NCBI GenBank assembly: GCA_021153985.1 | Contig: JAJKJM010000081.1 | Location: 1 to 43,820 of the forward strand | Direction: 5' to 3' | Length of the DNA: 43,820 nucleotides | Source: Polaromonas sp. | GTDB taxonomy: Bacteria > Pseudomonadota > Gammaproteobacteria > Burkholderiales > Burkholderiaceae_C | Shown here: positions 19,128-19,364 of the stretch, piece after piece | Position numbering within the stretch: the stretch's first letter is position 1 | How the letters are laid out: the number at the start of each line of letters is the position of its first letter | The notes under the pieces: generated by a model | Database searches by the model: none | What the model was told of the DNA's origin: nothing | What the model saw: the letters and a program-made list of their open reading frames with translations, nothing else | Made by a program: the position numbers and the translations under genes

Positions 19128-19364
19128 ATGACTGACGCAGGCGCCATTGCCATTGCATGTGGATTGATCATCGGCCTGGGCGCTATCGGCGCCTGCATGG
19201 GCATCGGGGCGATGGGTGGGCGGTTTCTGGAGGGCGCCGTGCGGCAGCCCGAATTGATGGAGCCACTGCAGGTGAAGATGTTTTTGCTGGCGGGGCTGAT
19301 CGATGCCAACTTCCTGATCGGGGTGGGGATCGCCATGATGCTGCTCTTTGCGAATCCACTTTAA
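19128..19364 (+). CDS. Orphan F0F1 ATP synthase subunit c paralogue
   Basis: A 78-aa two-helix hairpin protein of the AtpE family. Helix 1 has the packing glycines [16 protein letters not shown] (16-31), the polar loop is RQPELM (39-44), and helix 2 carries the ion-binding carboxylate D59 in [24 protein letters not shown] precedes the ATG. In intact ATP synthases c monomers form the rotor ring. No other atp gene is nearby; the neighbours are an RluA gene and a VF530 gene. The N-terminus differs from the usual betaproteobacterial AtpE, so this is probably a second, divergent copy rather than the housekeeping one; the rest of the genome would decide. Confidence 0.88.

Follow-up and report, generated by a model that had tools for sequence, protein, structure and literature searches.

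What is a c subunit of ATP synthase for when its gene lies away from the atp operon? The question is raised by a short gene of a Polaromonas genome, analysed here within a stretch of 43,820 nucleotides, hereafter the window. The c subunit sets the ion that is used and the size of the rotor ring, and hence the energy cost of ATP. An earlier note on this DNA had proposed that the gene is a second copy of atpE whose product could alter ring stoichiometry or ion preference, or form a ring of its own. The solitary copy and its counterparts in other genomes are termed type I below.

The c-subunit gene and its product

The features of the locus are collected in Table 1. The gene had been described as encoding a complete two-helix c subunit with Asp59, preceded by its own ribosome site, and both points were upheld. 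The open reading frame is exact and matches Pfam PF00137 with an E-value of 2.7e-12 and a score of 47.2 bits (cut-off 24), as an F-type c subunit does. It scores 108.3 bits against NCBIfam PRK06876 (cut-off 71) and likewise passes the cut-off of TIGR01260. Purine-rich stretches occupy the place of the AAGGAG motif upstream of those related copies whose flanks were inspected.

Table 1. Features of the solitary c-subunit locus (positions in the window)
Feature	Position	Strand	Basis or remark
RluA-type pseudouridine synthase gene	18367..19083	-	Pfam PseudoU_synth_2; divergent, 44 bp upstream
AAGGAG ribosome-binding site	19114..19119	+	ATG 8 nt downstream; sequence and upstream stretches of relatives
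Solitary c-subunit gene (type I atpE paralogue), 78 aa	19128..19364	+	Open reading frame, PF00137 and PRK06876 profiles, relatives
R39-Q40-P41 polar-loop codons	19242..19250	+	Same in 32/32 type I copies
Asp59 codon, ion-carrying carboxylate	19302..19304	+	Same in 32/32 type I copies
Asn61 codon, type I signature	19308..19310	+	Asn in 32/32 type I copies; Ala in 31 and Ser in 1 of 32 housekeeping copies
VF530 family gene	19377..19700	-	Pfam VF530; convergent, 12 bp downstream
Pyridine nucleotide-disulphide oxidoreductase, NDH-2-like (NDH-2 is our label)	19904..21226	-	Pfam; near the gene in related loci

The AlphaFold2 model of the protein is a hairpin of two helices (residues 3–39 and 46–75) with a mean pLDDT of 80 and a pTM of 0.48. 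The predicted helices, together with the residues common to all 32 type I copies, give the hairpin with an RQP loop and a carboxylate in helix 2 that characterizes F-type c subunits. The top Foldseek matches of the model are c subunits of F1Fo enzymes, the best with an E-value of 0.012 and none below 0.001, and Asp59 lines up with the corresponding Asp in c subunits of solved structure.

The GC content of the gene (0.599) is just below the range of five neighbouring genes (0.600–0.671), and its GC3 (0.759) lies inside theirs (0.728–0.852). No sigma-70-like promoter was found between 18900 and 19500 (0 found, 0.2 expected), and the promoter and terminator scan returned two terminator-like sites where 0.5 were expected. 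A chance open reading frame is ruled out by the profile scores and by conservation, since the same protein occurs at 82–100% identity in other genomes of six genera with a low dN/dS.

A paralogue kept outside the atp operon

The assembly that contains the window is 88.9% complete in 230 contigs. Searching it with PF00137 gave two matches above the cut-off: the window copy and a copy on another contig (G000:C65:29932-30147). The latter lies between atpB and atpF, followed by atpH (Pfam ATP-synt_A, ATP-synt_B and OSCP). The window copy is flanked by the RluA-type and VF530 genes, and no match to atpB or atpF was found in the window. The two proteins are 68% identical. The solitary gene is thus a paralogue of the housekeeping atpE, as had been claimed, and the possibility that it is the only atpE of the genome, which the earlier note had named as the finding that would count against it, is eliminated. 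The note had looked for a second atpE in a full operon; atpB, atpE, atpF and atpH are visible, and the remainder lies past the end of the contig, which comes soon after atpH. Two further matches, on contigs C100 and C8, were rejected as a third c gene; both are below the cut-off and that on C100 has internal stops.

The same arrangement recurs elsewhere. Twelve two-copy genomes were re-scanned, eleven with the type I motif and one (G394) added as a check, and each gave exactly two PF00137 matches, one flanked by atpB and atpF and the other located elsewhere. The non-operon copy is type I in eleven of them, with no third copy, and belongs in G394 to a second kind of solitary gene, type II, presented below; none of the twelve genomes has both types.

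That the gene stands alone between the RluA-type and VF530 genes was confirmed by the Pfam assignment of both neighbours, and the synteny sought in relatives was found in Polaromonas: in 13 of the 14 loci examined, two broken copies included, the gene is bracketed by RluA and VF530, G006 being the exception. Twelve genomes were chosen from the 46 Polaromonas genomes that lack the solitary gene. In eleven of these, the RluA and VF530 genes are side by side with 19–273 bp between alignment ends; in the twelfth (G013), there is no RluA near VF530. The only two c-subunit matches in the gene-less RluA/VF530 loci are chance ones (E 0.6) inside other genes. As the flanking genes are adjacent where the c gene is missing, the gene is either cleanly present or cleanly absent.

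Beyond Polaromonas, the type I gene follows folK (Pfam HPPK) on the same strand at 5 of the 6 loci from Ramlibacter and Caenimonas and at all 5 from genus g98, two sets that may overlap. It adjoins RluA in genus g132 and has other neighbours in three genera. Its neighbourhoods number at least three (RluA/VF530, the place after folK, and others), so that its function seems independent of the genes beside it. Neither atpB nor atpF was matched by F-type queries in 37 stretches around type I copies, the window included and some genomes being represented twice. In Ramlibacter cellulosilyticus, an open reading frame downstream of the gene (L077, about position 6720) starts with a stretch that resembles the solitary c subunit's tail and is perhaps a partial duplicate.

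Type I occurs in Polaromonas, Ramlibacter, Caenimonas and further genera. Among the matches listed, it was present at 82% identity or more in 15 of 398 family genomes (the genome of the window and genomes at least 95% complete), in 6 of 115 genera. Scanning named genomes located it, at 82–87% identity, in Ramlibacter, Caenimonas and one Betaproteobacteria MAG; the next 68 loci among the matches listed were 71–78% identical and had atpB and atpF beside them. Polaromonas sp. JS666 carries the solitary gene. A DNA pattern for Ile-Asp-Ala-Asn-Phe-Leu-Ile was matched in 14 of 399 family genomes, 13 of the matches falling in c subunits, and in 2 of 200 genomes drawn from the whole order, namely that of the window and G576, where the match is no c subunit. 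Inspection of the loci likewise rejected the match in G299. Carriage by plasmids or phages was also rejected, as none of 7 plasmid and 3 phage matches covered 80% of the query and all were 60–80% identical. The conserved solitary c gene is more than an oddity of one genome. In openly licensed literature, as represented by titles and the openings of abstracts, no lone, second or orphan atpE like this one was described, which lends weak support to its being unpublished.

Within Polaromonas the gene is patchy. Among 61 genomes, that of the window included, a match that spans 71 residues or more at 87% identity or above was found in 13. One of these, the copy of G006, a genome with 7% contamination, departs from the family after residue 71. 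Two further copies are broken, that of G025 by some 0.2 kb of inserted DNA and that of G014 by substitutions and a frame shift near the end. The tally is 12 intact copies, one cut short and two broken, with no such copy in the remaining 46 assemblies, many of which are incomplete. By eye, the two ends of the insert in the G025 copy (L047, 8095-8330) resemble inverted repeats such as those of a small non-autonomous element. Of the 30 Polaromonas genomes that are well assembled (at least 90% complete, at most 5% contamination), 8 have an intact copy, 2 a broken one and 20 none. The solitary gene is thus dispensable.

This raises the possibility of a spare-dose copy or transient relic, that is, a transferred or duplicated atpE that has no special role, is kept briefly and is often lost. 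The patchiness and the adjacent flanking genes of 11 of the 12 gene-less genomes agree with it, but the type I copies are under purifying selection similar to that on housekeeping copies. By the Nei-Gojobori method, over 78 codons and hence coarsely, the median dN/dS is 0.095 for 15 Polaromonas type I copies and 0.097 for 17 of other genera, against 0.132 for 15 housekeeping copies of Polaromonas and 0.095 for 10 from other genomes; broken copies, the G006 copy and loci already represented (L075, L079, L080) were set aside. The low dN/dS and the presence of Asn61 in every copy of a whole-protein search across several genera argue for a gene that is kept with a distinct role, which makes a relic unlikely.

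Type I forms one clade with support of 100/99, and also in plainer trees after re-rooting (76 with codons, 95 with proteins). The trees were built on about 80 columns and many of their forks are unresolved. In the best trees, type I lies beside Lautropia-like housekeeping copies. A grouping with Comamonadaceae housekeeping copies was not rejected (p-AU 0.17), so that an origin by transfer and one by old duplication both fit.

Type II genes, with Asp-Gly-Ala-Phe-Ile-Ile at the ion site, were found in 20 of 28 two-copy genomes selected from the family, G394 among them, and in 19 genera that differ from or overlap those of type I (loci L232-L249, L253 and L254; also L192). The assignment means that no atpB or atpF match lies within about 1.5 kb on either side. 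The remaining eight genomes had operon copies and two unclear pieces. Like type I, type II is a c gene of two-helix length away from atpB and atpF, and its three tested copies pass PRK06876. It differs from type I in forming a separate clade (100/100), in its Asp-Gly-Ala ion site and in looser constraint, with a median pN/pS of 0.51 versus about 0.13–0.14 for type I, type II spanning more genera. A joint clade of both types had a p-AU of 0.037 in a test named after the tree was seen. The neighbours of type II vary; few are named by Pfam and none is an ATPase part.

Residues around the ion site

An alignment of 64 copies was examined. Its 32 type I copies comprise 30 different DNA sequences and 24 different proteins; the housekeeping copies number 25, of which type I genomes supplied 24 and G394 one, and a further 7 are Lautropia-like housekeeping copies. 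All 64 share Gly16, 18, 21, 25, 27 and 30, the RQP loop and Asp59. Type I differs at position 38, which is Val in 32 of 32 copies versus Ala in 32 of 32 housekeeping copies; at position 32, which is Arg in 32 of 32 versus Lys in 31 and Arg in one outgroup copy; and at position 46, which is Pro in 31 of 32 versus Glu in 25 and Lys in 7. The loop of the same 31 type I copies reads Glu45-Pro46, and further differences are scattered along both helices. Asn61 and Val38 are each found in type I alone. No copy of the set was picked by the Asn61 pattern alone: the residue is present in all 15 copies from the whole-protein search, which cover six genera, and in all 14 aligned Polaromonas copies, G006 and G014 included. 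In E. coli, the position equivalent to Asn61 is reported to have helped to change the ion choice in mutants.

Since the ring-packing glycines are kept and the changes lie beside the ion site and at the loop, ring packing appears to be preserved. The type I subunit is therefore unlikely to change the size of the ring, and the altered stoichiometry suggested by the earlier note is disfavoured, the glycine positions of helix 1 matching those of housekeeping copies. The chemistry of the ion site may be changed.

A formation of type I rings of their own, free of F1 and acting as a proton or ion pore or as another membrane oligomer, would suit a gene that is solitary and has neither atpB nor atpF in the 37 stretches. 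The RQP loop couples the c-ring to F1, and it is the same in all 32 type I copies; nor does any partner gene accompany type I across all the genera seen. Such a ring is judged improbable.

Two papers bear on ion preference. In Na+ enzymes, the residue two places past the carboxylate is Thr67, located close to a water at the ion (PMC3692424). This carboxylate+2 position is Ser, Thr, Gln or Arg in predicted Na+ enzymes and Leu, Ile or Val in predicted H+ enzymes (PMC2359735). Asn61 occupies it in type I and is polar, yet outside the former list, and the housekeeping copies examined here have Ala, so the published Leu/Ile/Val rule is not exact. A subunit that makes the motor use Na+ in place of H+ would account for a polar residue at this position, but the Na+ ligands drawn from both papers (Gln/Glu 32, Glu 65 and Ser/Thr 66 in I. 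tartaricus numbers) are replaced by Ile26, Asp59 and Ala60, according to our own pairing of residue numbers by alignment. Sodium coupling is thus highly improbable. Of the altered ion preference that had been suggested, a hint survives in Asn61, which is polar where predicted H+ enzymes are aliphatic (PMC2359735); the other Na+ ligands are absent. Type I is read as a proton subunit whose site would be changed and would perhaps hold water.

Proposed role and known systems

The reading given most weight, with a probability of about one half, is that type I serves the F1Fo ATP synthase of the cell as a functional, alternative c subunit. The protein would be made in trans from its own gene, enter the membrane as a hairpin of two helices and join the c-ring, either next to the operon-encoded c subunit in a mixed ring or instead of it. 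The same ring size and coupling to F1 would be expected, as the packing glycines, the RQP loop and Asp59 are unchanged. A changed proton affinity or coupling would be expected from Asn61 beside the carboxylate, Val38, and Glu45-Pro46 (31 of 32 copies) in the loop, and the changed site would provide conditional tuning of the motor. The sequences document the gene, its status as a paralogue, its conservation and constraint, and its signature residues; expression, ring assembly and the effect on ion binding are inferred.

This proposal is favoured by the housekeeping atpE that lies with atpB, atpF and atpH in the same genome, by the twelve re-scanned genomes that all have one operon copy and one elsewhere, and by the 37 stretches around type I copies where F-type queries matched no atpB or atpF. 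Purifying selection like that on housekeeping copies, at least three neighbourhoods, fixed signature residues and Foldseek top matches to F1Fo c subunits also speak for it. Against it stand the divergent gene only 44 bp away with no sigma-70-like promoter in 18900-19500, and a dispensable gene of which 20 of 30 well-assembled Polaromonas genomes have no copy. All Foldseek E-values exceed 0.001, dN/dS over 78 codons is coarse, and the Ala of housekeeping copies indicates that the site of Asn61 is not strictly fixed in H+ enzymes. As it is little changed in some relatives and differs at one residue next to the ion site, the solitary c subunit is probably not junk but an alternative part of the rotor.

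A regulatory or brake subunit is a related possibility. A few copies would enter the ring and lower turnover or coupling, for example at low energy, Asn61 altering the protonation of Asp59 or the contact with subunit a. The features that fit the ring are indeed kept while the neighbour of the ion site is changed in 32 of 32 copies, and absence from many relatives is what a conditional modulator could show. These observations would agree just as well with a tuning subunit in good working order, and a brake is considered rather unlikely.

More broadly, and tentatively, members of the family might tune F1Fo by swapping rotor subunits. Solitary c genes that arose at least twice, as types I and II, would be conditionally expressed and would give mixed or alternative rings of unaltered size in which the ion site is different, amounting to rotor switching without a change of stoichiometry. 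Doubtful as this extension is, it would cover both lineages.

Three known systems can be compared with the alternative c subunit proposed here. Housekeeping AtpE (PRK06876, TIGR01260, PF00137) shares its length, RQP loop, helix-1 glycines and Asp carboxylate; the solitary subunit differs in lying outside the atp operon, in Asn61, Val38, Arg32 and mostly Glu45-Pro46, and in its own clade (100/99). In Acetobacterium woodii, a mixed rotor is built from several c genes of the atp operon, one being of a larger, duplicated type; PDB chain 4bem, named c2 subunit, is presumably from this organism. More than one c gene serves one enzyme there, as in the proposed model, whereas type I is a lone hairpin gene for which mixing is a proposal. 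The N-type ATPase c subunit (c17 of Burkholderia pseudomallei) is likewise an extra c beside a regular F-type operon; according to PMC5376962, its gene lies in an operon of its own with nine genes and the protein has two carboxylates. The immediate neighbours of the solitary gene in the window, of the RluA and VF530 families, are not those of an N-atp operon, and the TIGR03322 score of its product, 26.1 bits (cut-off 130.85), rules out an N-type subunit.

A lone conserved c subunit with one fixed change by the carboxylate, in cells that keep the ordinary copy, would offer a natural test of the mixing of rotor subunits in bacteria, and of what a single neighbour of the ion site does. A bearing strain present in databases, Polaromonas sp. 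JS666, makes such tests practical.

Two other parts of the window deserve mention. A polyphosphate kinase 2 gene (16519-17445) lies near the solitary c gene, as does the NDH-2-like oxidoreductase gene of Table 1; the energy theme that they share may be due to chance. At 23117-26459, two ParB-like genes, one of them above the curated cut-off, form a row with a gene that matches serine recombinases weakly; the row lies beside an MFS gene and suggests a mobile element.
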